Assembly: GCF_021134715.1 (NCBI RefSeq)
Contig: NC_060019.1
Coordinates: 1,054,001 to 1,118,000 of the forward strand
DNA length: 64,000 bases
Direction: 5' to 3'
Origin: Daphnia pulex
Lineage: Eukaryota > Arthropoda > Branchiopoda > Diplostraca > Daphniidae
Made by a program: the position numbers and the translations under genes. Below, piece by piece: positions 5,091 through 31,783 of this stretch. Numbering within the stretch: the stretch's first letter is position 1; every line of letters starts with the position of its first letter. The notes beneath the pieces were generated by a model. It made no database searches. It had not been told where the DNA came from and worked only from the letters and a program-made list of their open reading frames with translations.

Positions 5091-6682
5091 ATGGCAGCTA
5101 GTTCATCCGTCGACAAAGTGACCATTGATCGTGCAAAGATTTTAGGAAAGGGAAATTTTGGCATCGTTTTCGAAGGTGCTTGGTGTTATCTTAAAGTGGC
5201 CGTCAAACGAATTCCTCTAGAAAACGCCGCGAGCAGTAAACGAGAAGAAAGTGCTTTACAAAAATTCAATCACGAAAACGTCATCAAACTATTTCATGTG
5301 GAGGAAAATGATGACTTTAAGTATATTTAAAAAACTGACCTGGCATTTAAAATTTAAACATACAAATTCTAAACTTGTTTTTTTTTTTTTAGAATTTTCG
5401 TCCTTGAATTTTGTGATGCCTCTCTGGAAAAATTGTTTCTCAAAGAAAATGACCCGAAAAAATACCGCGGTCCAATGCCGCCAGAAACGGAAGTTCTCCT
5501 CCAGTTGGCTAAAGGACTAGAGTACATTCATCAAAAGGAATTAGTCCATCGCGACATCAAGCCACAGAACGTTCTCATTTGGGTGAATCCAAACTCAAAC
5601 CAGGTTTTGATGAAATGGGCTGATTTCGGTTTCAGTAAACGTGTCAACGAAAGGGGAACTTACACAATGAGTGCAGTGAAGGGAACATACGATTATTTCG
5701 CACCGGAAATATTGAAACACCTGGACGAGGCCAGTTCTACTGGAAACGAAGTTCAGAAAAGAGGGACCGTCAAGAGCGATGTATTTGCAGAAGGCCTCGT
5801 CTTTGGCTACTTCATTGTGGAAGTGATAATCTGGTGGAAATGGTTAGTCTCCTGATCCAGCACGGAGCCAACGTCAATGCACTGGACAGTATAGGTAAAA
5901 ATGCTCTTCTTTTGTGGTGCGGATATCGTGAACATCATGAAAACAAAAGTTTTTTGGCAATCATCAATCTCTTCGTTAAAAATGGGATCAATATCAATTG
6001 CAAAACTGAATACGGATATAATGCTCTAATTAAATTGTGCAAATATTATAAAAAGGAAAATTTAATTGACATTATTCAATTTTTAATTGAAAATGGGATC
6101 GATGTCAATTGCAAAGACAAAGACGGAAGGAATGCTCTCATTTTTTTGTGCGTAAATTATAAAAACCAAATTCTAATTGACATTATTCGACTTTTAATTG
6201 AAAATGGGATCGATGTCAATTGCAAAAACGAATACGGAAATAATGCTCTCACTTTATTGTGCGCATATTATCAAAACGAAAATTTAATTGACATTATTCA
6301 ATTTTTAATTGAAAATGGGATCGATGTCAATTGCAAAGACAAAGACGGAAATAATGCTCTCACTTTATTGTGCGCATATTATCAAAACGAAAATTTAATT
6401 GACATTATTCGACTTTTGATTGAAAATGGGATCGATATCAATTGCACAACCAATAACGGACATAATACTCTCACTGAATTGTGCGAATATTACGGAAACA
6501 AAAATTTCATTGACGTAATCAAATTTTTAATTAAAAGTGGATTGAATGTGACGGAAGAAACGTGGGCCTTTTTCAAGAAGAATTATTACAAAAAAAATCG
6601 CGATGAAGTCTTGCAAATATTTCATGAAATCTTACAACAACATCCAGTTGAACCAGCGACTAAACGAATGAAGTTCGAATAA
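5091..6682 (+). pseudogene. IRE1/RNase L-like kinase joined to ankyrin repeats with a frame break
   Basis: Exon 1 (5091-5320) and exon 2 (from 5393), joined in phase 2, encode a protein kinase of the IRE1/RNase L type. Visible features are the glycine loop GKGNFGIVFEG, VAVKRI with the ATP lysine, HRDIKPQNVLI, the ADFGF magnesium motif, GTYDYFAPEIL and KSDVFAEGLVFGYF. The frame then runs to a stop at 5853-5855. From ~5819 the next frame (GSDNLVEMVSLLIQHGANVN) continues as ankyrin repeats to 6682. The rest of the kinase C-lobe is missing between the two. No intron of workable size can join the frames, so a deletion with frameshift, or a sequencing error, is likely. No KEN ribonuclease domain follows. 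The ankyrin part has about seven repeats, five of them near-identical. An AATAAA lies near 6799. Confidence 0.65.
5955..6540 (+). repeat. 111-bp tandem ankyrin-coding repeat
   Basis: Five units of 37 codons follow the pattern LIDIIQFLIENGIDVNCKDK then DGNNAL and LCAYYQNEN. CATTATTC recurs near 6181, 6292 and 6403. Nucleotide similarity between units is high enough to imply recent unit duplication or conversion within the gene. Confidence 0.85.
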
Positions 6683-15650: not shown

Positions 15651-17559
15651 ATGTCTAAAGACGCGAGTGGTTTTTGGCGGACTCAGCTGACGACTTTTGC
15701 AGTTTTATTTGCTGGATATGCATCGTATACTTATAATCGGAAAAGCGGTAGGATAACAATTATGTGAATATTTTAAATCATTATCTAATGCTTGTTTGTT
15801 TTATAGTCTCTTTTGCATTGCCAAATTTGATGAAAAATGGCCTTTTGGACAAAAGTGCTGCTGGTACATTTACTTTCTCGTGAAGTGTTTTTGAGTTTTG
15901 ACAGGTTTGTTTTCATTTCACACTTTTCTTATAGGAACAATATCAAGCAGCCAAAATACAGCATATGCGATAAGCAAATTTTTAGGAGGAGTCTTGTCTG
16001 ATAGAATCAGTGCCAAATGGTTATTCTTTTCAGGTAAACATATCTTTAGATTATCTTTTCTCCATAAATTACTTTAATGCTTATACTGTGTATACTTGTT
16101 TTTCAGGTTTGGTTCTCAGTGGAGGAGCAACAATTTTATTCTCAACAACTTCATCATTAACTTTGTTTGCTGCTCTGTGGTTTTTAAATGGATTTGCTCA
16201 AGGAGCAGGTTGGCCAGCTTGTGCAAAGCTGCTCAAAAAAGTACAAGATAGCCTTCCATGACCCATGCATCTAATGACAAAATTGTTTTCTTCTTTTATG
16301 TACATAGTGGTTTAGTCCTGAACAATTTGGAACATTTTGGAGTGCACTTTCTGCTTCTTCCAATGTTTCAGGATCTCTTTGCCCTTTCTTGGCAACTTGG
16401 GTAATCGAACATTTTGACTGGCGAGCTAGTCTAGTTGTTTCCGGTATTGTTACATATCTTTTGAATAAGTTGATAGTTTAACATCAGCCACATTCAGCAG
16501 CTCTTTTCACTTGTATTCACAGGTGGAGTTACCATAACCAGCGCAGTTTGTGTTGCTATGCTGTTGACTGATAGTCCAATCGATGCGGGTTTCAACAAAA
16601 ACTTTACGCCAGAAGCATCGAAGAAAAAAACAGATGGAAAAAGCACTGCTGCCCAGTCAACGTGGAGAGATCTCATTAAATCCCCTTTCTTGTGGGTCGT
16701 CTCGGTTGTTTATTTGGTCGTTTTTGCTGCCAAAACGAGTGTGACTGAATGGGGGCAAATGTACTTGATTGAAGACTTGGGCCATTCAGCTTTCACTGGT
16801 AGGAAACTTTGAAAGATTTTATCTAAAATCCTAGTAAATGTTCTTGTTATTGATTATAGGTAGCGGTTTCATCAGTGCAGTGGAGACGGGAGGATTTTTC
16901 GGTGGAATCGCCGCTGGATATGTTACTGATTGGCTCATGAAAAAAGTACGCCTTACACCTGATACTTGTTTAAAAGATTACTAATTACATAAAAATTCTT
17001 GATTTTAGTCAGGAAAAAAGACAGCCGGTAATCCACGCATGTTTGCAGCCATATGGTTCATGGCTGGCGTTGCAGGATTTTTATTTCTTCTTACTACTTT
17101 TGTAACGACGTCTACTTCTCAAGTAAATTCAATTCACGCGTTTAATTACTTTCTCTAATGTTAAACAATTTGTCTCTGTCCGTTAGTTTTTCCTTACTGT
17201 GATTGGATTTGGTCTAGGAGCGTGTCTGTACGCTTGCATCGCCATTTTTGGCATAGTCGCTTCCGAGTCTTATCCTTCTCATTTGAGCGGAACAGCACAT
17301 GCCGTTGTCGCTCTGGCTGCCAACGGTAAACAAACAAGTTATTTAAAAAATTAAGGAAGTGCGTGTGTTTTGACTTTTGTTTTTCTCTTCAGTGGGAGCA
17401 ATATTGTCTGGATTACCTTGCAGTTACGTGGCTCAATTGTACAACTGGCGCGCAATATTTATAATTCTAGAAATTTTGGCAGCGGCCGCTGCCCTATTTT
17501 TAGCCGTTTTTGGCAAAGTGTCCCCAGGATTGCCTGGAGATAAACCCAAATCCCAGTGA
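15651..17559 (+). CDS. SLC37A4: Glucose-6-phosphate translocase (SLC37A4-like, MFS)
   Basis: Ten exons (15651-15747, 15807-15863, 15935-16033, 16107-16240, 16308-16443, 16523-16798, 16860-16945, 17009-17122, 17187-17325, 17393-17559) give 434 residues, matching the ~430 of the family. Characteristic stretches are YTYNRKS near residue 30, the [20 protein letters not shown]-type loop motif of sugar-phosphate MFS carriers, [37 protein letters not shown] and the late segment [20 protein letters not shown]. Twelve hydrophobic segments are consistent with two six-helix halves. The protein exchanges glucose-6-phosphate and phosphate across the ER membrane. All introns are short GT-AG. It ends tail to tail with NDUFV3-like locus A. 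Confidence 0.93.
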
Positions 17560-17728
17560 AACTAACCAAAATAAAATACAGTAGTTATTGTTTATATGGG
17601 TCTTAGTTCAGGTACATCCGAAATTATTCACCTACAACCATTTCATTGGTTGACATTTTTAACCAAATTAGGAAAAACAAAAATACAAGAATATTGATTC
17701 TAAATATGGTCCGAAAATATTTCCATAC

Positions 17729-20700
17729 TTAAGCTTTGTTTGAAGGCTGGGGAAGTCTAAACGATTCCATAACTTTTTCAATGTCGTAAAACGACATGAC
17801 GTTGTAAGTGAAATATTCAGGATTTTTATACGGTCCTTGTTTTGACGCCCCAGGACCCACCACTATTGAGGAAAAGTAAATTTATCGTTAACTCAAATAG
17901 TTCATACAGATATACGAATGTTGACTATCATTACCTGGATCTTCAATTACGGGTTTGTCCAAATTTCCTTCGGCTGTCTCTGTCTTAGACTCTAATATTC
18001 AGCAAAGTTATGATTTCAATTAAAAATTAATCTAGACAATACACGATCAAACTGTACCTTTGGATAATTTCGAGTCCACGTCAGAGTCCGAGTCAGAGTC
18101 AGAATCCGAATCAGAATCCGAGTCTGTGTCGCTTCCAGCTGAATTCACAACATTTGAATAAATAATAAGACTGGAAATTGCAAGTTAATTAATACCGGTA
18201 GACTCCGTGTTAGGTTTGGCGTCGGTAGCTGAAGATGTAACCACAGGATCTTTTGCAGAAAATTACAATTAGCATAATACAATCAACAAAAAGAAATGCT
18301 TTTACCTTCGATTTTCTCCGCTAGTTTCACTGATTCGACAACAACAGGCGAAGAAGCAGTAACGTCTGTTTCCAAGCAAAGTTTAAGATCAGTATCATGA
18401 ATTTTTTAATCGGAATCTAGTAAAGATTACTTACTAGCAGGTTTCACCATTTCAGCCTCGCAAGGGGCAACTACAACTGGTTCTAAATAATGAAATTAAA
18501 TGTAATAACAATTTCGCTGGCTTCATAGGAAAAATCACTAACCAGTAACTTCCTCGTCTGCGGGTTTCAATGATTCGAGGACGGGAGCAGCAGCTAAAAC
18601 TGGTTCTAAATAATAAATTTAGATGAAAAAATAACACATTCGAAAAGCGATTCTAATAAACATTTATTTACCCACAACTTCTTCAACAGGTTTCCCTGCT
18701 TCAACGGTGGGAGCAGCAGCTACGAGTGGTTCTAAAATAAGAAATAAAATCCAAATATGATATTCATAATCGAACAGGTTAGTAGAACGATCCTTGTAAA
18801 ATAAATTACCAGCAATTTCTTCAGTAGATGTCACCGCTTCAACGACGGAAGGAGCTGCTAAGATTTGTCATAAGAAGTTAAGACCATAAATTGAATAAGG
18901 ATTCGAAAAATAATTATTGGGAATAAATTACCGGCAACTTCCTCGGCAGGTTTCGCTAGTTCAACGATAGAAGGAACAGCTAAGACTGGTTCTAAATAAT
19001 AAATATAAATGAAAAAATAATAAAAACACTGTAAAGCAAACTAATAAAAAATCACTTACCAATAACTTCTGCTGTAGGTTCAAGTGCTACAGCGACGGGA
19101 GGAGTAGCTAAAACTGGTTCTAAAAATACACTGAAATGTAAATGAAATTTCGCTAAAAGTCAAATTAAAATTCAACTACCAGCTACTTCTGGAGCATGTA
19201 TAACTGCTTCAACGATGGGAGGAACAGCCAAGACTGGTTCTAAATCATGAATTTATGCGTAAATAAAATTTTCGCCAATTCAACGATCCTAATAAAAATC
19301 AATTACCAGCAATTTCTTTAGCAGATGCAACTGCTTCAACGACGGAAGAAGCGGCTAAAACTGGTTCTAGAGAAGAAAATAAAATGTAAAAAAACATTTG
19401 AGTTAAAGGATCCTATTAAAAATCGATTACCAGTTACTTCCGCAGCAACTTTAACGGCTTCGACGGGAGTGGCAACTAGCACTGGTTCTAAACAATGTAG
19501 TAGAATGTTTATTACATTTTGCACAGCGATCCACGATCCTAATAAAATCGATTACCAGCAACTTCCTCAGTAGGTTTCAGTGCTTCAACGATGGGAGGAC
19601 TAGCTAAGACGGGTTCTAAATTAATAATAATAAATGTTAATGATAAAATAAAACAAACAAATAACTTTTAAGTGAACCTAACAAAAATCACTAATCACTT
19701 ATACCAGTATCTTTTTCTGTAGGTGTCAGTGCTTCAACGGCGGGAGTGGCAACTAACACTGGTTCTACATAATGAAATAAAATGTATAGTAAAATTTTTC
19801 AAAGTGATCTTAATTGAATTAATTACCGGTAACTTCTTCAGCAGATTTAGCTGTTTCAACAATGGGAGGGGCAGCCAAGACTGGTTCTAAAAGGTTGAAC
19901 ATTATGCATAAAAATTTTGCAAAACAATCCTAGTAAAATAAATTACCGACAACTTCTTCAGCAGGTTTCAGTGTCTCAACGATAGAAGGAGCAGCTATGA
20001 GTGGTTTTTTAAAAATAATTCTGAAAAATAAATATTCTGAAAAGCGATTCTAATACAAATCAATTACCCGCAACACTCTCGGCAGGTTTCACTGCTTCAG
20101 TGATGGAAGAAGCAGCCGAAATTGGTTATAAAGAATGAATTCAAATGTAAACCGATGTAAACAAACATTTTCGCCAAACGACATGTTGAATCAATTACCA
20201 GGTACTTCGGCAGCAAGTTTAACTGCTTCAATGACGGGAGGAGGAGCCGAGACAGGTTCTATTTAATGAAAAAAAAAATCCAATTACTGTAAAAGTTTTG
20301 CAAAGCGATCCTACTAAAATCAATAACCAGCAATTTCTTCAGGAGATTTCATCGCTTCACCGACGGGAGTAGTAACTAGGAGTGGTTCTAAAAAATAAAA
20401 TCGAAATCATTGTTTTACGGCGATCCTAGTGAATTGATTTTTTTAAATTACTAGCTTCCTCCTCTACAGGTTTGATTGTTTCGATGACGGAAGGAGCAGC
20501 CAAGATTGGTTCTAAATAATTGAAAAGTAAAATTCATTCAGTTAAGCGATTCTTTTTAAAAAATCAATTACCAGTGACTTCCTCGGCAGGTTTCATTTCT
20601 TCAACGACGGAAGAAGCAACTAAGATGTGTGTTCGGAAAATGAAAAGTAAATAACATTCTGTAAAGCGATCCTAGTAAAATTACCTACCAGTAACTTCTT

Positions 20701-21468
20701 CGGCAGGTTTAACTGCTTCAACTGCGGGTGGAGCAGTTAATACCGGTTCTAAATAATGTAATTAAATGTACATGTAAAAATCAGCAAAACGATCCTAGCA
20801 AAAATTGTTACCAACAACTTCCTCAGCAGGTGTCACTGCATCGACGGCGGTATCGGCGGAAGACGACTTTACCAATGGTCGTACTTCTACGTAGTATTTT
20901 GATTAGAAACAATACTTGCAAACTGTCATAGTTATAATCAAATTACCAACAACTTCTTCAGGTTTCACTGCTTCAATAATGGTAGTAGTTGCTGCAATGG
21001 GTTCTAATCCATGAAATGAAAATATTTCAAGGTTAAGACTTTTACCCTTATGTAAAGCAATTTAAATGTTACCTTTTGCTATTGACTTATTAGAAGACTC
21101 TGCACATCAATGATAAAGTACATGAATAATTTCAGATAAAACCAGATCGTATCTTTTGAAAATTATACCTGCATCTGTTGCTGTGACTGCTGACATATTT
21201 ACTATCTTTATTTCTGTTGGCTTTGAAACTATTGCAGAATGCACAGCGCTGGTACCCCTGGAAGTAGGCTGGAGAACAGACTCCAAAGGATTGTTCGTTT
21301 TAGGAGGTTTAGAGCAGAAAAGACGTGTTCCAATTGGCATCACCTTAAACAGTTCATTTCATTCAAAGTTATAAATTTCGTCCGTCTATCCATTTTTAAA
21401 TTTTAACCTAGTCCAACGTTTGTTTGTAAAAGTACCTTTCTGACGAGATTTAGGCGAACGAACGACAT
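17729..21468 (-). CDS. NDUFV3-like gene A with a repeated-exon array
   Basis: Exon 1 (21468-21436, MSFVRLNLVRK) and exon 2 (21343-21169, VMPIGTRLFCSKPPK...) form a likely mitochondrial presequence. The last exon (17862-17729) encodes the conserved NDUFV3 segment (GPYKNPEYFTYNVMSFYDIE, then FRLPQPS). NDUFV3 is an accessory subunit of complex I (NADH dehydrogenase). Between them I see about 26 small exons. Around 20 of these, ~125 bp apart, each encode a ~21-residue module like EPVLAAPPIVEAVKPAEEVAG. Exons 18138-18058 (Ser-Asp repeat), 17991-17935 and 18249-18196 differ. The junctions I worked through are phase 1-1. The unit near 20067-20128 has lost its acceptor AG. Total length would be roughly 600 residues, mostly disordered, against ~90 in locus C. 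The mammalian gene also has an optional long exon at this position. Confidence 0.75.
18058..18138 (-). repeat. Ser-Asp repeat exon in locus A
   Basis: An 81-nt exon encodes an alternating acidic run (GSDTDSDSDSDSDSDSDSDV) within the NDUFV3-like gene A. It is not present in the part of locus B that remains, nor in C. Confidence 0.85.
18434..21000 (-). repeat. Tandem exon-intron repeat array A (~125-bp unit)
   Basis: About 20 direct units. Read on the minus strand each has an acceptor TTTAG, a ~60-nt exon starting AACCAGT and ending near GAAGTTG, a donor GTAAT, then a ~60-nt AT-rich intron. Exons lie near 18543, 18672, 18809, 18930, 19058, 19178, 19304, 19429, 19553, 19704, 19827, 19945, 20067, 20198, 20326, 20449, 20568, 20687, 20809 and 20945. 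In several units the acceptor has moved inside the exon, to CTTAG before GCTGCTCC. Confidence 0.9.
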
Positions 21469-22045
21469 GATTATTGATTTCTTCGTGATATTTTTGCACT
21501 GTTAACAAAATGATAAGCTTGGCTAGGCGAGTTCTTTCTGACTGCTTCAAATCTGCTAGGACCCCCTCCTACCACAGCTTTGGCCTTGGTTAAAAATGTA
21601 GCACGCTGGATCGTATAAGCGCGTTCAAACGGGAATCTAGGTAAACATGAAGGTTTGTTGTCAAGCAGAGGCCAACCCAGCTGCTAGTTATTCACCAATC
21701 AAAACTGTTCGCGTTGTTGTCAGGCGTAGAACACACTTGAAAGAACAGCGACTAGTTCTACGAGCTACGAGTTTGGCAGCTTTGACTTTGTAAAATCTTT
21801 TTACAAAGTGTAAGGACAAACGCCTGTACGAGTACGACAGTGTTTCAGAACTTTGTTTCCCCTGATTTGAGATCGACAAGGCGGCACAAGCGGTAACCTT
21901 GACATTGTTCAAAGAAAAATTTTTGCAAGATAATTTTTCCTGTTGCGTAATTTGCAAAACAATAGTTTCTTTTTTTAAAATTCCAATGTAGTAACCCTTC
22001 GATAAAGACTAAAAATAAACCCAACCTTGAAACTGACCACAGACG
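21469..22045. repeat. Duplicated upstream flank of locus A (pairs with 29283-29885)
   Basis: The 5' flank, including TACCACAGCTTTGGCCTTGG and the GCGTTCAAACGGGAATCTAG region, is repeated with few changes upstream of locus B. Similarity stops abruptly after CCAACCTTGAAACTGACCAC on both sides. This fixes one edge of the A/B tandem duplication. Confidence 0.85.
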
Positions 22046-22113
22046 GAATATGCACTAGTATGCGCGGAATTTTCTTTGCGCGCGGAAAATTAAAATGCGC
22101 TCAAGGTGGAAAT

Positions 22114-22133
22114 GTTAGGTTAGGTTAGGTTAG
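22114..22133 (+). repeat. Interstitial telomere-type repeat (TTAGG)n
   Basis: Three full TTAGG units plus TTAG in perfect phase. TTAGG is the usual arthropod telomere unit. It lies ~70 bp from the edge of the locus A/B duplication. Confidence 0.8.
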
Positions 22134-22329
22134 ATAGATTACAATGTGATAACCGTGCGCGCAAGTCGCGAGGGGAAGAGTTTACATGCTATATAGTGTT
22201 AGAGGCTACATGCTTCACCATAATCTATTACTCTGGTCTCTTTGTAGTTTGGATTACCTTGGAAATGCAAAAATTTGTTGACATAGATTCTCAGTATTTA
22301 GAAAAAAAAGACGAAAATGGAATGAATCT

Positions 22330-22490
22330 TTTCTTAAAAATAATTTGATATGGTTAAATCAAACTTATTATGAATTGTAATTATGTGAAAACAAATTTGT
22401 ATGATGTTTTCATCTTTCACTTGTTAATAAAGTTTTTTTGGTGAGTCATTACTTTCGTCGTGAATGAGCGAACTAAAGACATTTTCTCTT
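22330..22490 (-). pseudogene. Relic of an NDUFV3-C-like first exon
   Basis: Positions 22482-22453 read MSLVRSFTTK followed by donor GTAATG, nearly the same as exon 1 of locus C (30582-30553, MSLVRPFTRK). Intron sequence after it also matches locus C (ATGGTTAAAT...GAATTGTAA). Exons 2 and 3 are absent, so this is a leftover of a second copy of the C-MANBAL block. Confidence 0.8.
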
Positions 22491-22554
22491 GATTATTTTT
22501 TATTATTATTTTAAGATTATTCTGTCTATTTATCTATATATATACATATTTATA

Positions 22555-22775
22555 CTAATATTCTTTCTCAAAACCCAACATTAAACTTATTGACTCAGTT
22601 TTATTGCAATATTTGGGGGGTTGTTTTGTGTTTTTCTTCATTTGACCACTTTTGATTGATGGAACAGCAGTTACACAGTTACACTATAAGGACAAAAAGG
22701 AAAATCTAATTCAAAGGAAATGCTAATGTTTACCAAAACGATTCCAAATATTCTTGAGCATGACGAAAAATTTAT
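22555..22775 (-). repeat. Duplicate of the 3' end of the 31.5-kb secreted-protein gene
   Basis: Matches 31250-31560 closely (shared GACTCAGTTTTATTGCAATA and GTGTTTTTCTTCATTTGACC). The MANBAL gene that lies between the equivalent segments at 30.6-31.2 kb is missing here, so a deletion followed the duplication. Confidence 0.85.
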
Positions 22776-25700
22776 TAGGTTTGACGTCCTCGGTCGCAGA
22801 AGATGTTACCACGGGATCTTTTGCAAAAAATTACAATTAACGTGATGCAAACAATAAAAAGAAAAGTTTTTACCTTCAATTTTCTCCGCTGGTTTCACTG
22901 ATTCGACAACGGGAGAAGCAGAAACATCTATTTTGAAGCAAAAGTTTAAAATCAGTATCATGAATTTCAGAATCAGATTCTAGTCAAAATAACTTACGGT
23001 CAGCAGGTTTCGCTATTTCAGCCTCGCAAGGGGCAACTGAAACTGGTTCTGTATAATGAAATTAGATGTAATAAAAATTTCGCAAAGCTTTCTTTAAAAA
23101 TCACTAACCAGGAACGTCTGCGGGTTTCAATGATTCGAGGTCGGGAGCAGCAGCTAAAACTGGTTCTAAATAATGAATTTAGATGAAAAAATAACATTCG
23201 CGAAGCGATCCGAACAAAAATTTACAGTGGGTACCTAAAGTATCCGTACGGCTGAGAGGAGCAGTACGGAAAACGCGTTTTTCAAAACGCTCCCATAAAT
23301 TGAATTCTCGTTGGAATGCAATAAAATTTTTTTGTAAGGTTAAGATTAGGGTGGGGTTTCATCTGATTTTTTTTGGGAATTTTTCAACAACGCGATATGT
23401 GGTTTTTATCGCGTTGCGAAAGTATCCGTACGGCCGAGAGGCCTAGTAGGGAAATGGGCTTACTTTGGAGGCCTCTTATTCGGTAAATAAGTAACATTAA
23501 AGGGTGGGAAAGTTCTTAAAAAAAAGAGCTGCATTAGCTCTATGTGTGGTCATAAGATCACATTTTTTAAGTTTCATTTATAGTAATGAAATCAAAAATG
23601 AAAACACGACTTATAAGTTTTCCGTTTTCTTCCCCTCGATTCCCCATCACCAGTGTTGCCATATCCCAAAATCTCTTTCTTCCCTTGGACGGAAGAGGGA
23701 GAAAGAGAAAGGGTAAATATTTTTTGATATGGCAACACTGGTGATGGGGAATCGAGGGGAAGAAAACGGAAAACTTATAATTCGTGTTTTCATTTTTGAT
23801 TTCATTACTATAAATGAAACTTAAAAAATGTGATCTTATGACCACACATAGAGCTAATGCAGCTCTTTTTTTTAAGAACTTTCCCACCCTTTAATGTTAC
23901 TTATTTACCGAATAAGAGGCCTCCAAAGTAAGCCCATTTCCCTACTAGGCCTCTCGGCCGTACGGATACTTTCGCAACGCGATAAAAACCACATATCGCG
24001 TTGTTGAAAAATTCCCAAAAAAAATCAGATGAAACCCCACCCTAATCTTAACCTTACAAAAAAATTTTATTGCATTCCAACGAGAATTCAATTTATGGGA
24101 GCGTTTTGAAAAACGCGTTTTCCGTACTGCTCCTCTCAGCCGTACGGATACTTTAGGTACCCACTGTATTTACCCAAAACTTCTTCAACGGGTTTCCCTG
24201 CTTCGACGATGGGAGGAACATCTACGAGTGGTTCTAAATTAAGAAATAAAATCAAAATATGATATTCATTATCAAGCATGTTAGTAGAACGATCATAGTA
24301 AAATAAATTACCAGCAATTTCTTCACTAGATATCACCGCTTCAACGACGGAAGGAGCTGCTAAGATTTGTTATGGAAACACAAATGAAATAAAAATTCGA
24401 AAAAAAAAAATCCTAGGAAATTGATTACCGGTAACCTCCTCCGCAGGCTTCACTGGTTCAGTGGTAGAAGGAGCAGCTAAGGCTGGATCTAAGTAATAAA
24501 TGAAAATGAAAAAAAAAAAATTGTAAAACTGTAAAGAACATTTATCACAAATCACTTACCAATAATAACTTCTCCTGTGGGTTCCATTGCCTCAGCGACG
24601 GGAGGGGTAGCTAAAACTGGTTCTAAATAGCACATTTAAAAAATGGAATTTCGCTAATAGTCCGAGTGAAATTAAATTACCAGGTACTTCGGCAGCAAGT
24701 TCAACTGCTTCAACGATGGGAGGAGCAGCCAAGACTGGTTCTAAATCATGAAATAAAATGTATACCGTATCACATTTTGCAAAAGCGATCCTAGTAAAAT
24801 TAATTACCAACAATTTCTTCAGTAGATTTCATCACTTCGCCAATGGGAGGAGCATCTACGATTGGTTCTAACAAATTAAAATCTAAATAATTGTTTCAAA
24901 GTGATCCTCGAAAAAATAATTTACCAACAACTTCTTCCACAATTTTTACTGGTTCGATGACGGCAGCTGCTGCTAAGAATGGTTTTTAATAATGAAATAA
25001 AATCAAATAAATTGTTGCAAAGCGATCCTAATTTTTAAAAAAATGATTACTAGCTTCTTCTTCTGCAGGTTTCACTGTTTCGGTGACGGAAGGAGCAGCT
25101 ACGGCTTCAATGATGGAAGGATCAACTACAAGTGATTCGGAAGGAGCAGCTATTATTTATTATACAAATGAAAAGTAAATGAGGTTACGAACATCTTTCC
25201 TAGAAAAATCAATTACCAGCAACTTCCTCGGCAGGTTTAACTGCTTCAACGATGAAAGGAGCAGCTAAAACTGGTTCTAGAGAATGAATTAAAATGTAAA
25301 AGAAACATTTGAGTTAAAGGATCCTATTAAAAATCGATTACCAGCTACTTCTGCAGCAACTTCAGCTGCTTCAACGACGGGAGGAACAGCTATGAGCGGT
25401 TCTAAAATTTAAATTATTAATTGTAAAATGATTCTATTAAAAAAAAAAGAATAATGTTACCAGGAACTTCTTCAGCAGGTTTCATTTGTTCGATGACCAC
25501 ACCGTCCGATAAGACTGGTTCTAAATATAGAATTAAAATAAATAATTAAAAAAAAAACTTAGCAAAAAGATCCTATTTGAAATCGATTACCAGCTTCTTC
25601 CGCAACAACTGATTCGACGACGGGAATGGCAACTAACACTGGTTCTAAAGAATATAGCAGGCAGAATGTATATTACATTTTACACAGCAATCCGCGATTC

Positions 25701-28700
25701 TAATTAAATTAATTACCAGCAACTTCCTCGGCAGGTTTCGCTGCTTCAACGATAGAAGGAACAGCTAAGACGGGTTCTAAATAATAAATTAAAAAATAAA
25801 AAATAAATAAAAACTTTTAAATGAACTTAACAAAAATCACTTACCAATTACTTCTTCTGTAGGTTTCAGTTCTTCAACGACGGGAGGAGCAGCTAAAACT
25901 GGTTCTAAATAATGTAATAAAATAAAAATAAATGTTGCAAAGCGATCCTAGTAAAATTACCTACCAGTAACTTCCTCGGCAGATTTCACTGCTTCAACGA
26001 CGGGAGGACTAGCCAAGACTGGTTCTAAATCATGAAATAAAATGTAGAAATATTTTGCAAAACAATCCTAGTAAAATGAATTACGAGTGATTTCTTCTGT
26101 AGATTTTATCGTTTCACCAACGGGAGGAGCAGCTATGAGAGGTTCTAAAAAAAATAATTCTTTACAATAGTTGCAAAGTGAAAAATAGTGACAAATAAAT
26201 TACCAGCAACGATTTCTTCAACAGTTTTCGTTGGTTCGATGACACTATCAGCTAAGACTGGTTCTGCAATGGCAAATAAATATTTAGAAATCGTTTTTTC
26301 ACTATTTCAAACACAGAAGGAGCAACTATGATTTGTTCTTAGAAGTAAAAATAAATATTTTGAAAAGCGATTCTAATAATAAGAATCATTTACCAGTAAT
26401 TCCTTCAGCAGGTACAGCAATTTCAGCTGCTTCAACGGCGGGAGCAACAGCTATGAGCGGTTCTAAAAATTAAATTCCTAATTGTAAATTAATTATTCTA
26501 ATTTAAAGAAAAAGGATAATGTTACCAGAAACTCCTTCAGAAGGTTTCACTTGTTCGATGATCTTACCATCAGATAAGACTGGTTCTAAATAAATAATTA
26601 AAATTTAAAAAACATTGTAAAACGATACGATTAGAAATCGATTACCAGCTACTTCCGCGGCAACTTTAGCTGATTCAACGGCGGGAGTGGCAACTAACAC
26701 TGGTTCTAAATTATGAAATAAAATGTATACCGTATCACATTTTGCGAAAGAGATCCTAATAAAATTTATTACCAGTATTTTCTTCAGTAGATTTTATCGC
26801 TTCACCAATGGGAGGAGCATCTACGATTGGTTCTAAGAAATTAAAATCTAAATAATTGTTTCAAAGTGATCATCGAAAAAATAATTTACCAACAACTTCT
26901 TCCACAATTTTTACTGGTTCGATGACGTCAGCTTCAGCTAAGACTGGTTCTAAATAATGAAAAAAAAAATTAATTGCCGCAAAGCGATCCTAATAACAGA
27001 AACAAAACATTACTAGCTTCTTCTTCGGCAGGTTTCACTGTTTCAATGACGGAAGGAGCAGCTGCAAGTGGTTCTAAGTTAAGAAATAAAATCAGAATAA
27101 AATATCACCTATCAAGCGATCCTTGCACACATCACTTACTGGCAACTTCCTCAGCAGGATTCACTGCGTCAACGATGGGAGGAGCATCCAAAACTGGTTC
27201 TAAATAATGAATTTATGTGTAAATACCATTTTCGCAAATTCAACGATCCTAGTAAAAATCAATTACCAGCTATTTCTTTAGAAGATGTGACTGCTTCAAC
27301 GATAGAAGGAGCAACTAAGATTTGGTTTGAAAATGAAAAATAAATAACGTTAAGAAAAACGTACTAGAAAATACAATTACCAGTGACTTCTCCAGCAGAT
27401 TTAGCTGTTTCAACAACGGGAGGAGCAGCTAAGGCTGGTTCTAAATCTAAAGAATGAAATAAAATATATGGTATATTTTGCAAAGCGATCCTAGTAAAAT
27501 AAATTACCGACAACTTCCTCAGCAGGTTTCAGTGTCTCAACGATAGAAGGAGCAGCTAAGACTGGTTCTAAATAATGAATTTTGTAGAACTTATAGTTTT
27601 TTTGTTCCAAAAAGGAAACGCTTAGGCAAAAATCGCTTACCAATAACTTCTTCTATTGGTTTCAGTGACTCAACGACGGGAGTGGTAGCTAAGACTGGTT
27701 CTAAACAATTAATTAAAAAATGTAAAAAACATTTTCGCCAGACGATCCTAGTGAACATTAATTACCAGGTACTTCCGCAGCAACTTGAACTGATTCAACG
27801 ACGGGAGGAGCAGCTAATATGAGCGGTTCTAAATAACAATTCTTAACAATAGTTGCAAAGTAAAAATGAATTTGTGATCAATAAATTACCAGCAACGATT
27901 TCTTCAACAGTTTTCGTTGGTTCCTCGGCAGGTTTCACTGCTTCAATGATGGAAGGAGAAGCTAAGACTGGTTCTAAACAATGAATTCAATGTAGAAAAA
28001 AAAAACATTTTTGTCAAACGATCCTATTAAAAATTATTACCAGCTACTTCCGCAGTCACGACCGCTTCAACGAAGGAAGGAGCGGCTAAAATTGGTTCTA
28101 AAGATTAAATTGATTGAATTCAAATGCAACCAAACATTTTCGCAAAACGATTCAAAAATCAATTACCAGGTACTTCGGCAAGAAGTTCAGCTGCTTCAGT
28201 GACGGGAGGAGGAGCCGAGACCGGTTCTATATAATGAAAAAAAAAAAATCCATTTACTGTAAAAATTTTGCAAAGCGATCCTGGTAAAATCAATAACCAG
28301 CAATATCTATAGCAGATTTTGTCGCTTCACTGACGGGAGTAGTAACTAGGAGTGGTTATAAAAAATAAAATAAAAATAATTGTTGTAAAGTGAACCTAGT
28401 TGCTTTTTAATTACTAGCTTCCTCCTCTACAGGTTTAATTGTTTCCATGATGGAAGGAGCAGCTTAGGTTTGTTCGGAAAATGAAAAGGAAATAACATTC
28501 TGTAAAGCGATCCTAGTAAAATTACCTACCAGTAACTTCTTCAGCAGGTTGAACTGCTTCAACTACGGGAGGAGCAGCTAATACCGGTTCTAAATAATAT
28601 AACAATTAAATGTACATGTAACATTTTGCAAAGCGATCCTAGAAACAATTATTACCAACAACTTCCTCAGCAGGTGTCAATGTATCGACGGCGGGATCGG

Positions 28701-29282
28701 CGGAAGAATTTACCAATGGTCGTACTTCTACGTAGTATTTTTGATTAGAACACAGTACTTACAAACTGATCATAGTTAATCAAATTACCAGCAACTTCTT
28801 CGGAATGTTTCACTGCTTCAATAATGGTAGTAGTTGCTGCGACGGGTTCTAATCCATGTAATGAAAATAGTTTAAGTTATCAAAGACTTTTACCCTTTGC
28901 CGTAGTATACAAAATACACGAATAATTTCAAATAACACCATATCATATCTTTTGGAAATTATACCTGCATCTGTTGCTGTGACTATCATATTTTCTGTCT
29001 TAATTTCTGTTAGCTTTGAACCTGTTGCGGAATGCACAGCGCTAGTACCCCTGGAAGTAGGCTGAAGAACAGACTCCAAAGGAGGTTTAGAGCAGAAAAG
29101 ACGTGCTCCAATCGGCATCACCTTAAACATTTCATTTAAATCAAAGTTTCAAATTTCGTTCGTCTCTTTTTTGAATACAAATACTTTTACTTTTTTTTTT
29201 TATTTTAAAATTTTAATCTAGTCCTACGTTAGTTTGTTTGCAATAGTACCTTTCTGACGAGATTTAGGCGAACGAACGACAT
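22723..29282 (-). CDS. NDUFV3-like gene B: long exon array with a foreign C terminus
   Basis: Exon 1 (29282-29250) and exon 2 (29121-28965) match gene A (MSFVRLNLVRK, VMPIGARLFCSKPP). About 40 small module exons follow down to ~22870, again each encoding ~20 residues of the EPVLAAPP..EAVKPAEEVAG kind. Unlike A and C there is no exon for the conserved NDUFV3 tail. The final exon (22817-22723) starts like A's exon 18249-18196 (DPVVTSSAT) and then runs in frame into KFFVMLKNIWNRFGKH and a stop. That ending is a near copy of the C terminus of the secreted-protein gene at 31511-31783. The product could not serve as a normal NDUFV3 subunit; it may be a chimeric protein or a decaying duplicate. I did not verify the frame of every exon. 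Confidence 0.45.
22870..28850 (-). repeat. Tandem exon-intron repeat array B (~125-bp unit)
   Basis: About 40 direct units of the same kind as array A, interrupted once by the palindromic element at 23225-24166. Some units are fused or altered: near 27888-27975 one exon holds the start of one module and the end of another, and near 28360 the acceptor AG is changed to ATAA. Confidence 0.9.
23225..24166. mobile_element. 942-bp palindromic (foldback) element with TA target duplication
   Basis: Two inverted arms of 441 bp (23225-23665 and 23726-24166) surround a 60-bp centre; I see one mismatch in the parts compared. Ends are CAGTGGGTACCTAAAG and its complement. Flanks are TA on both sides, and the array sequence resumes as in the empty site (AAATTTA|TTTACCC), so TA was duplicated as for Tc1/mariner elements. 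It encodes no transposase; the frames in the two arms are mirror images of each other. It lies in an intron of gene B next to a splice donor. Confidence 0.92.
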
Positions 29283-29885
29283 AATTTCTTTGTGATATTT
29301 TTGCACTTTTAACAAAACGATAAGCTGGGCTCGAAAGGCGAGTTCTTTCTGACTGCTTCAAATCTGCTAAGACCCGCTCCTACCACAGCTTTGGCCTTGG
29401 TTAAAAATGTAGCACGCCGGGTCTTATAAGCGCGTTCAAACGGGAATCTAGGTAAACATGAAGGTTTGTTGTCAGGCAGAGTTCAACCCAGCTGCTAGTT
29501 ATTCACCAATCGAAACTATTCGCGTTGTTGTCAGGCGTAGTACACGCTTGAAAGAACAGCGACTAGTTCTACTACCGAGTTTGGTAGCTTGACTTTGTAA
29601 AATCTTTTTACAAAGTATACTAGCGTTCGACTGCGTGTGTTAGGCTTCCATTTCTTTAAAATGATTTTAGTTCAAGTTCATAACTTTCATACCTTGGTTT
29701 GAGATCGACATGGCGGTGACCTTGAAATCGTTGCTTGAAAAGATAATCTTCCTTGATGCGTTATGTGCAGAACAGTATTTTTTAAAAGTAATGTATCTTT
29801 CTCCGCATCTTAACATTCCAATGCAGTAACCCTACAATAATGACTAAAAATAATCCCAACCTTGAAACTGACCACAGACAATAAG
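29283..29885. repeat. Duplicated upstream flank of locus B (pairs with 21469-22045)
   Basis: Same sequence order as upstream of locus A. Divergence is visible but modest, and includes an extra ~80 bp near 29620-29700. Confidence 0.8.
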
Positions 29886-29996
29886 AAACTTTTCATGGAG
29901 AAAATTTTTAGTTTGAAATGATTTTATCTAATAAAACCAAATGGCTTATTCAATTCTAAACATACAGTCATACTGTCATAGATTAACACTTTTTTT

Positions 29997-30582
29997 TTAC
30001 TTCTTGAGGCTAGATGGTTGGGGGATTCTGAAGGGTTCCATGTCCTTTTCTATATCGTAGTGAGACATGACATTGTAAGTGTAGTACTCTGGATTTTTGT
30101 AGGGTCCTTGTTTGGATGCTCCAGGGCCTACGACTATATTCAATTTTCATTTTATTGTTAGTTTTCATTTGTTTTGCTTTGCTGTATTTTATAATAATAC
30201 CTGGATCTTTTGCTGTGGGAATTGGTGCAGAAGCTGGTTTAGGAGGAGTGGGGTTCACTTTCGGTGGCTCAGTAGCAAAAAGACGAACACCGATAGGCAC
30301 CACCTAGGAAATTAAATCAATTTGTTATGAAAAATTCACAGTATTTTTGAAATTATAAAATTGAATTAAAGTTCTCTTAAAAATGATTTGCTATGGTTAA
30401 ATTAAACTTGATGTGAATTGTAATAATTATGCAAACCAAATGTTTTTATCCTAGATGCAAAACCTAGATGTTTTTATCTAATAACTGTAACTTAATTTTG
30501 GAACTTGAAAACTGAAAATATATTTTTGTTCATTAATATGGTGATTCATTACTTTTCTCGTGAATGGGCGAACCAAAGACAT
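29997..30582 (-). CDS. NDUFV3: NADH dehydrogenase flavoprotein 3 (complex I accessory subunit), locus C
   Basis: Three exons (30582-30553, 30303-30201, 30133-29997) give 89 residues: MSLVRPFTRK, a Pro-rich linker (PPKVNPTPPKPASAPIPTA) and the conserved tail VGPGASKQGPYKNPEYYTYN then MSHYDIEKDMEPFRIPQPSS. The tail matches the short NDUFV3 isoform (YKNL...MPQPSS in mammals). Both internal junctions agree with loci A and B (phase 0, then phase 1). The Arg-rich N terminus fits matrix import. This is the plain version with no repeated exons and is the best candidate for the ancestral gene. It is divergent from MANBAL. Confidence 0.88.
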
Positions 30583-30805
30583 GTCTAGTTGATTTTTTAT
30601 AGAATAAACTCGAAAGTCGAAAAGTAAGAATATTTCTTAAATTGATCAGCTGCCCAGCTGTGATCGGCAAGTGCAGACGACGTAGATGTGGTTCAGCAAA
30701 CAGCATAGTCAAGTCTACAGGTTGCACGACCGTAGTTGTTTTTCGTAATCGAATCAAGTTCCAAATCCAAATCCTAGATGTCAGGTCAATCGTCTGTCAT
30801 TAAAC
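30583..30805. promoter_or_regulatory. Divergent promoter region NDUFV3-C / MANBAL
   Basis: Only 223 bp separate the two start codons. It must hold both 5'UTRs and promoters. No TATA box is clear. Confidence 0.5.
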
Positions 30806-31207
30806 ATGGTGGTACGTGTTTTTGTTCTGATTGACAATTAACTCTTTAAATAGTCTTGTTTTTCGGATGTCCTTTGATTTTTCCATTGTTTGTGTGTAGG
30901 CCGCAATGATGGATATAGAGGAAACAACGTTTGATCTCTTTCTAAGATATGGACTCTTTTTTGGAGCAATCTTCCAACTGGTGTGCATAGGCGCCGCTAT
31001 TTTTGGACCAGAGATTTCAGAAGCTCATTCCAAGGTAAGAAAAAATAAAAACCTATGCGAGAAAATGTTTCAAACTTTGAAATTTCGGGCCATCAGGAGG
31101 AGATCAGTGAAGATTCTGGTTCTGAACACGGTAGCCCAACCAACACTGGCCACAAGCATTCTGGGCAGCACAATCGTAGAAAAATGGATAAGAAAAAGAG
31201 AAGATGA
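30806..31207 (+). CDS. MANBAL: UPF0239 / MANBAL-like small membrane protein
   Basis: Three exons (30806-30811, 30900-31034, 31097-31207) give 83 residues. The first coding exon is just ATG GTG. The core FLRYGLFFGAIFQLVCIGAA is the single membrane segment diagnostic of the UPF0239 family (Drosophila anon-73B1, vertebrate MANBAL). The tail is hydrophilic and ends MDKKKRR, as in the family. Function is not established. If the 6-nt exon is not used, translation could start at ATG 30912 or 30906 with little change. The 3' end converges on the small secreted-protein gene. Confidence 0.9.
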
Positions 31208-31510
31208 AGACTCATCTGATGAACACTATTCTTGCATTTTTGAACACCAACATAGTTTCTTTCTCAAAAACCCAACATTTAACTTATTGACTCAGTTTTA
31301 TTGCAATATTTGGGGGTTGTTTTGTGTTTTTCTTCATTTGACCATTTTTAATACATAAATGATTGATGGAACAGTAGTAAATGTCTCTAAAGCATTCTTT
31401 TAGTACATGCCTGAGAAATGGGGTGAATAGTGTTGGACGCATAATCTTACACAATACAGTAGTACATTCACTTATAAGGACACAAAGGAAAATCTAATTC
31501 AAGGGAAATG

Positions 31511-31783
31511 CTAATGTTTACCAAAAAGTGTCAAAATAATCTTGAGCATGATGAAAAATTTCTTTAAACTACCATCTCCATACTTTTTATCATCGTAAAA
31601 TTTAAAGTGCCTCTTGACGATGTTGTGCGCTGGCGATGTTAATAATACAGAGTCCTCTTTAATATCCGATATCCGCTGTCCTGCAACCGCGGCGTCCACT
31701 GCACAATCACTCAAGAAAACAATTAGCAAGACGGTCATCGCCAACAACAGAATTCTCTTTCTTGATCGAAAAAACCTCTGCAT
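31511..31783 (-). CDS. Small secreted or signal-anchored peptide precursor
   Basis: A single-exon frame of 90 residues. Residues ~8-31 are basic then hydrophobic (RKRILLLAMTVLLIVFLSDC), followed by AVDAAVAGQ, consistent with a signal peptide. A dibasic site (NIVKR) precedes a lysine-rich tail HFKFYDDKKYGDGSLKKFFI that ends in MLKIILTLFGKH. Small size, a possible KR cleavage and a cationic amphipathic end resemble secreted peptide precursors, including antimicrobial ones, but I recognise no family. The last ~17 codons and the 3' flank exist again at 22723-22775, fused to gene B, which supports that this end is transcribed coding sequence. Confidence 0.55.
   Translation of the reverse strand: MQRFFRSRKRILLLAMTVLLIVFLSDCAVDAAVAGQRISDIKEDSVLLTSPAHNIVKRHFKFYDDKKYGDGSLKKFFIMLKIILTLFGKH

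Follow-up and report, generated by a model that had tools for sequence, protein, structure and literature searches.

The window, by which we mean the whole 64-kb stretch of Daphnia pulex DNA analysed here, carries on its minus strand three related units, which we call A, B and C (Table 1). Gene A (21468-17729) is an NDUFV3-type gene whose frame-consistent model encodes 614 aa without an internal stop, and which runs from a start exon through a linker exon, a 27-nt exon, an array of 22 exons and three linker exons to a tail exon carrying PF15880. The preliminary description had proposed a gene with an NDUFV3 start and an NDUFV3 tail over exactly this span, and it was borne out: the span equals the CDS limits of the model (the ATG at 21468, the stop ending at 17729), the tail is PF15880, the start exon could be modelled in frame, and the stop codons in most spliced exons that it had named as evidence against itself are absent from spliced model A. 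Its ~20 micro-exons do form a tandem array there, but they number 22 in A, and a further 40 in B had been overlooked. Unit B (29282-22723) begins in the same way, with a start exon and a linker exon; the 40 array exons follow, and its last exon continues into foreign sequence, where it meets a stop (895 aa as modelled, without an internal stop). The observation is confirmed, and is larger than first reported, since it takes in array B, gene C and a block duplication besides A. The 27-nt exon and all exon limits were set by splice signs and frame and are to be read as a model.

Table 1. Features of the locus, in window positions; the two exon lists for array A follow transcript order.
Feature	Position	Strand	Remarks
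Gene A, exon 1	21436..21468	-	Start and presumed mitochondrial targeting peptide MSFVRLNLVRK; identical peptide in B
Gene A, exon 2	21169..21343	-	VMPIGTRLFCSKPP... linker, phase 1 at end; VxPIGxRLF in common with gene C
Gene A, putative 27-nt micro-exon	21073..21099	-	Phase 1-1; modelled in A, not in B; placed by splice signs and frame only
Array A	18306..21003	-	22 phase 1-1 exons, from profile matches, splice signs and frame
Array A exons, first half	21003-20947, 20886-20812, 20748-20689, 20619-20572, 20511-20452, 20387-20328, 20258-20199, 20127-20068, 19994-19947, 19886-19827, 19764-19705	-	
Array A exons, second half	19615-19556, 19487-19431, 19366-19307, 19239-19180, 19119-19060, 18991-18932, 18857-18810, 18731-18672, 18605-18543, 18482-18435, 18365-18306	-	
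Gene A, linker exon 'dp'	18196..18249	-	Phase 1-1; its B copy is the breakpoint exon
Gene A, acidic serine/aspartate exon	18058..18138	-	GSDTDSDSDSDSDSDSDSDVDSKLSK; phase 1-1
Gene A, linker exon	17935..17991	-	ESKTETAEGNLDKPVIEDP; phase 1-1
Gene A, tail exon	17729..17862	-	NDUFV3 C-terminal domain (PF15880) and stop
Unit B, exons 1 and 2	28965..29282	-	Exon 1, 29282-29250; exon 2, 29121-28965
Array B	22874..28848	-	40 phase 1-1 exons, none with a stop
Long-arm inverted-repeat element	23223..24168	.	~0.9 kb, inside a B intron; many copies genome-wide
Unit B, last exon as modelled	22723..22817	-	Fused to sequence matching 31473-31564; ends in a stop, without NDUFV3 tail
Duplicated-block remnants between A and B	22256..22776	.	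C exon 1 in a second copy; further pieces match 30302-30427, 31257-31378 and 31473-31564
Gene C, compact NDUFV3	29997..30582	-	89 aa; exons 30582-30553, 30303-30201, 30133-29997

The array exons are uniform. As modelled, all 62 of them (A and B) have a length divisible by three and are phase 1-1, in agreement with the phases given earlier for the exons read by eye, and the accompanying claim that any exon could be skipped or included without a change of frame fits these lengths and phases; because both borders are phase 1, gain or loss of an array exon likewise keeps the frame. The usual exon is indeed 60 nt long (38/62), although it encodes a module of 20 residues, not 21, with the consensus EPVLAAPPVVEAVKPAEEVA. 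The introns, put at ~60 nt, are short, but the median of the 60 introns between array exons is 67 nt, and 58 of the 60 measure 57-89 nt; 28 are divisible by three, which is a slight enrichment, and retention would bring in an in-frame stop for 56/60. From exon 2 onwards all introns of models A and B are phase 1, and C has a single intron at that place, of phase 1 too. Donors begin with GT in 62/62 cases (GTAA 53, GTAG 4, GTTA 4, GTAT 1), and acceptors end with AG in 61/62 (TAG 57, CAG 3, AAG 1), the one without AG being exon A8 (20127-20068), which lacks it at either usual acceptor place. The P/A/E/V/K composition claimed for the modules holds as well: array A encodes 428 residues, 74% of them P/E/V/K/A, with a net charge of -58 and without F, W or Y, and the corresponding figures for array B are 72% and -128.

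Of the 69 matches that an HMM built from 33 array exons with their flanks gave at E<=10 in 17501-31600 (minus strand), 65 reach E<1e-3; the 33 seeds match by construction, and three matches scoring under 4 were removed ahead of the counts. On the opposite strand of 17501-31600 there were 0 matches at E<=0.01, and the remainder of the 64-kb window gave 0 matches. Nor was a further array found elsewhere in the genome among the matches listed for two queries, array DNA (at least 14 places) and a 159-aa module stretch (at least 8), all of which lie at this locus, and no relatives of the array were confirmed in the bacterial and archaeal genome collection. A different tandem repeat, with a period of 111 and 5.1 copies, occupies 5979-6540 of the window; its translation we take to be ankyrin-like in appearance. 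Within the introns of both arrays a motif around ACTAGGATCGCTTTGCA, ~15 nt past the donor, is partly conserved: in an alignment that took in 58 of the 60 array introns, AGGATC occurs exactly in 24/58 and with at most one mismatch in 39/58.

The tails belong to the NDUFV3 family. PF15880 is recognised in A with E 2.3e-15 (56.7 bits) and in C with E 7.8e-14 (51.8 bits), against a cut-off of 25. Compared with solved structures, gene C matched 15 distinct sequences at E<=1, all named NDUFV3 or synonyms, the best being the NDUFV3 chain 8b9z_s (E 2.8e-10), which is presumably from Drosophila. A Pfam scan of A at E<=0.1 returned NDUFV3 and a subthreshold IMUP match only, with no Ig or Fn3 domain. Searched against its own genome, the tail has two matches, A and C. 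These differ at 31/126 nt (42 codons), and since 24 of the 31 differences fall at third positions, selection at the protein level has acted strongly on the tail in one branch at minimum and probably in both. By eye, a small plus-strand gene at ~30806-31207, of MANBAL-like appearance, starts head to head with gene C.

Several lines of evidence bear on whether the arrays are coding. (i) In 18 reciprocal-best A-B pairs the exons differ at 128/1023 sites and the downstream introns at 169/916 (odds ratio 0.63, Fisher p 3e-4), with splice signals excluded, each intron counted once and the 1008-nt B37 intron left out; 20 hand-chosen A-B array pairs, again with introns counted once, gave 113/1137 in exons versus 198/1030 in introns (0.46). 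(ii) In the same 18 pairs gaps come in threes in 9/9 cases in exons, one of these being a choice of acceptor, and in 4/44 in introns; because the frame guided the choice of exon borders, the exon figure largely restates that lengths come in threes. (iii) No stop is found in the 40 B exons, of which ~6 would be expected to carry one in the absence of selection, given 0.088 changes per site; for rates of 0.060, 0.088 and 0.107, simulation gave an expectation of 4.3, 6.0 and 7.1 stop-bearing exons, and 31, 3 and 0 of 3000 runs, respectively, were free of stops. Gene conversion from A or between the arrays could help in keeping frames and could weaken the argument from stops. (iv) For hand-chosen A-B pairs dN/dS comes to 0.81 (interval 0.53-1.25), a value not confidently below 1; this set of 21 pairs includes exon 2, leaves A4 and A8 unpaired, joins A6, A12, A13 and A16 each to the second-ranked unit, and adds A10-B12 although B12 is outside the three best of A10. 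(v) In the exons that measure 60 nt (38 in all), pairwise differences average 0.37, 0.26 and 0.33 at codon positions 1, 2 and 3, and a codon-position pattern of residue-level constraint was not found. The A-B rates together with a dN/dS of ~0.8 indicate that frame and composition have been kept more than residues, and residue turnover with kept frame and gross composition is as expected of a disordered linker. The B-B pairs described below tell against this reading, exons there being scarcely slower than introns. A chance or satellite origin of the repeats was considered and rejected in view of the evidence from frame, stops and rates.

A block duplication links the two arrays. Stretches of the A side match others on the B and C side at 21115-22044 versus 28911-29879, 22256-22384 versus 30302-30427, 22561-22671 versus 31257-31378, and 22685-22776 versus 31473-31564. 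These matches fit one tandem duplication that would have started at the 'dp' exon of the array gene, taken in C and extended past the small plus-strand gene, and whose outcome would be A whole, B without a tail and a remnant with the copy of C exon 1. That copy, at 22482-22453 on the minus strand between B and A, reads MSLVRSFTTK and is followed by GTAATG; with its phase-0 end it would fit A exon 2 as an alternative first exon. Best-match pairs between the arrays keep gene order at the ends (A1-A3 with B1-B3, A7 with B6, and A18-A22 with B36-B40), and within B, B16-B18 resemble B31-B33 and B19-B20 resemble B27-B28, from which it follows that growth of the B array was internal. Given that the introns are phase 1 in A, in B and at the same place in C, the array probably lies in what was an ancestral phase-1 intron, the ancestral state being a reconstruction from the present genes. 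The earlier claim that the array occupies the place of the optional exon of mammals is supported, as it stands before the tail exon, where C has its single phase-1 intron, and the mammalian exon is so placed in excerpts of PMC5293009.

The reading that we favour, with a probability of roughly 0.7, is that A is a paralogue of gene C producing a long-form NDUFV3 whose PEVK-like linker grew by duplication of frame-neutral exons, and that B is a later block copy. Within the phase-1 intron that precedes the tail exon, a 60-nt exon together with an intron of ~65 nt would have multiplied in tandem, and the later tandem duplication of the block would have produced B without its tail, after which the B array would have expanded in its middle. 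The spliced A product would consist of the targeting peptide, a disordered acidic linker of P/V/A/E modules of ~20 residues each, the acidic Ser/Asp stretch and the conserved tail; it would be imported, and the tail would dock where NDUFV3 sits, near NDUFV1 and NDUFV2. With the targeting peptide included, the A model comes to 63.5 kDa, as against 9.9 kDa for C. A targeting role for MSFVRLNLVRK is suggested by its basic, acid-free composition, and disorder of the linker by the composition of the array; that A is transcribed and its product imported and incorporated into complex I we presume. Most array exons would be spliced in constitutively, and length would change chiefly as genomic exons are gained or lost; with arrays of 22 and 40 exons in one genome, copy number probably differs between clones and species. 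The conserved C-terminus of bovine NDUFV3 lies 'most likely' in the cleft between NDUFV1 and NDUFV2 (PMC5293009, in excerpt). That paper reports no NDUFV3 homologue in insects; excerpts of the later PMC10036122 describe a partly occupied site at the NDUFV3 place in Drosophila complex I.

The status of B allows more than one reading. Having no tail, B cannot make an NDUFV3 subunit on its own: a genome search with the tail finds A and C only, and the 26-aa end of the modelled last exon of B has no Pfam match at E<=0.1. It is quite possible, although we incline against it, that B is a young pseudogene kept readable through conversion from A. Besides the missing tail, B contains a dead unit, the fragment 26337-26278 in the B20 intron, which lacks a donor and was left out of the 62. 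An element has inserted into one of its introns, with 450-nt arms that are 99% complementary and 46 nt apart, ends reading CAGTGGGTACC and TA adjoining on both sides; a query of one arm and part of the spacer matched at least 78 places genome-wide, many with an identity of 99-100%, 40 of its 102 candidates having been scored. Finally, in 8 B-B pairs exons and introns barely differ in rate (71/463 versus 132/772 sites), and exon gaps are in threes in 7/11, the four exceptions being confined to B8-B21 and B15-B35, where we suspect the alignment to be at fault. All four features, from the lost tail to the faint contrast between exons and introns in B-B pairs, argue for a pseudogene. Against this, the 40 modelled exons carry neither stop nor frameshift, and their open frame speaks for B being translated, either by itself or as part of transcripts joined to A; moreover, B7, B8, B10 and B15 in the middle of the array have no close partner in A.

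A second alternative, the one put forward in the preliminary description, concerns the use of the array: that it is a splicing device in which many combinations of skipping and inclusion would yield a range of linker lengths. All modelled array exons are phase 1-1, so that any skip would be safe for the frame, an in-phase second AG lies 12 nt inside 34/52 exons of at least 54 nt, and in mammals, according to excerpts of PMC5293009 and PMC11749709, the NDUFV3 exon at the same place is subject to regulated skipping. G at donor position +5, present in just 12/62 array exons, might also be taken to favour such a device, but among the donors listed from outside the arrays in A, B and C it is missing in 10/10 as well and is therefore not a mark of weak array exons. 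Short introns go with constitutive splicing, and those of the array are of this kind; acceptors (61/62) and donors (62/62) are present and alike throughout, and a scan of 17001-31600 on the transcript strand for the antisense of the single shared 15-nt intron motif tried, allowing up to 3 mismatches, found nothing. With uniform splice sites, short introns and one negative result of the docking type, there is no sign of regulated choice. Moreover, a separate short gene exists, and with short and long forms encoded by the neighbouring genes C and A there is less need to invoke splicing as a parallel to mammals; we regard a splicing device as unlikely.

Two further proposals join the arrays. B might not be an independent gene, its exons being spliced onto the A array, so that a single locus would have two promoters and as many as 62 modules. 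The absence of stops in the 40 B exons despite the missing tail, the agreement in phase (phase 1 at the donors of B as at the array acceptors of A) and the identical start exon at B and A speak for such joining, but B has a last exon of its own with a stop, the joining requires that A exons 1 and 2 be skipped, and the 0.9-kb element sits within a B intron; we consider it improbable. The boldest form, in which A and B are one length-tuning complex I locus whose two promoters, up to 62 interchangeable modules and one NDUFV3 tail would furnish graded acidic tethers beside the NADH site, varying by tissue, stage and clone, with C as the short form, is a long shot. Least credible, and very unlikely, is that the repeats are an unexpressed tandem repeat merely resembling exons: the ~120-nt tandem period does span exons and introns and residue turnover is high, but the frame is held in 62/62 modelled exons, exons change more slowly than introns in A-B pairs, 40 B exons are without a stop and the tail is constrained.

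How the paralogue with its long linker compares with known systems depends on the feature chosen. Among the nearest likenesses is the long form of mammalian NDUFV3. The long and short forms of mammals, in excerpts of PMC5293009 and PMC11749709, share the tail of the same subunit, and a long insert stands between start and tail. Mammals, as described there, have one long optional exon, whereas here the array belongs to a paralogue of its own, next to which lies the compact gene. In the NDUFV3-L of mammals, phosphorylated serines occur in an acidic serine-string region (PMC5293009, in excerpt), which the Ser/Asp exon of A resembles in composition only. Homology of the linker exons of A to the mammalian long insert was not found when the last 108 aa of A were compared with solved chains: NDUFV3 chains were matched through the tail, one of them (6g2j_s) with a weak match ahead of the tail as well, and the long NDUFV3 chain of 471 aa was outside the 14 matches. 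The role of the NDUFV3 long form is little known, as excerpts of PMC5293009 put it, and a paralogue with a growing frame-neutral array offers a natural test of that role, the short and long NDUFV3 being here neighbouring genes in place of splice forms.

Two other systems are alike in part. The micro-exon genes of schistosomes also have many tiny exons, mostly divisible by three; those in the excerpts of PMC10526429 encode secreted products, with exons of 6-81 bp and introns that range from 100 to nearly 5000 bp, and the same text cites earlier work on exons repeated in tandem in a schistosome. Unlike these, the present arrays consist of repeated 60-nt units with short introns and have a presumed mitochondrial product. 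Dscam-type clusters choose one exon, and the array exons described here can all be joined; the one docking-type comparison was, as said, negative. What they do have in common, judging from excerpts of PMC4835542, is a tandem set of homologous exons in an arthropod gene.

The other near likeness is the PEVK exon region of titin. Among the titles listed from the open-licence PMC literature none describes such an array in NDUFV3, which does not imply its absence from print. The PEVK exons of titin are frame-neutral too. In the excerpts of PMC6469411 they are alike in that (i) many short exons encode a stretch rich in P, E, V, K and A, (ii) growth was by exon duplication, larger blocks included, and (iii) ordinary annotation catches the exons poorly; the per-exon ratio threshold used there for titin is 0.54, and A and B reach 0.74 and 0.72 as whole arrays. 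They differ in that the present gene and compartment are others, without a muscle context, the array units are near-identical in length with introns of ~65 nt, and the composition is P/V/A/E, with low K (~4-5%) and a net acidic charge. Taken together, tandem short frame-neutral exons for disordered protein are of a kind already known from titin, and what is new, as far as our literature search shows, is such an array in the paralogue of a complex I subunit, in two linked copies beside the compact gene, which makes this locus a compact case for studying how tandem exon arrays for disordered protein originate, how they spread by block duplication and how they stay readable after the loss of their anchoring domain.
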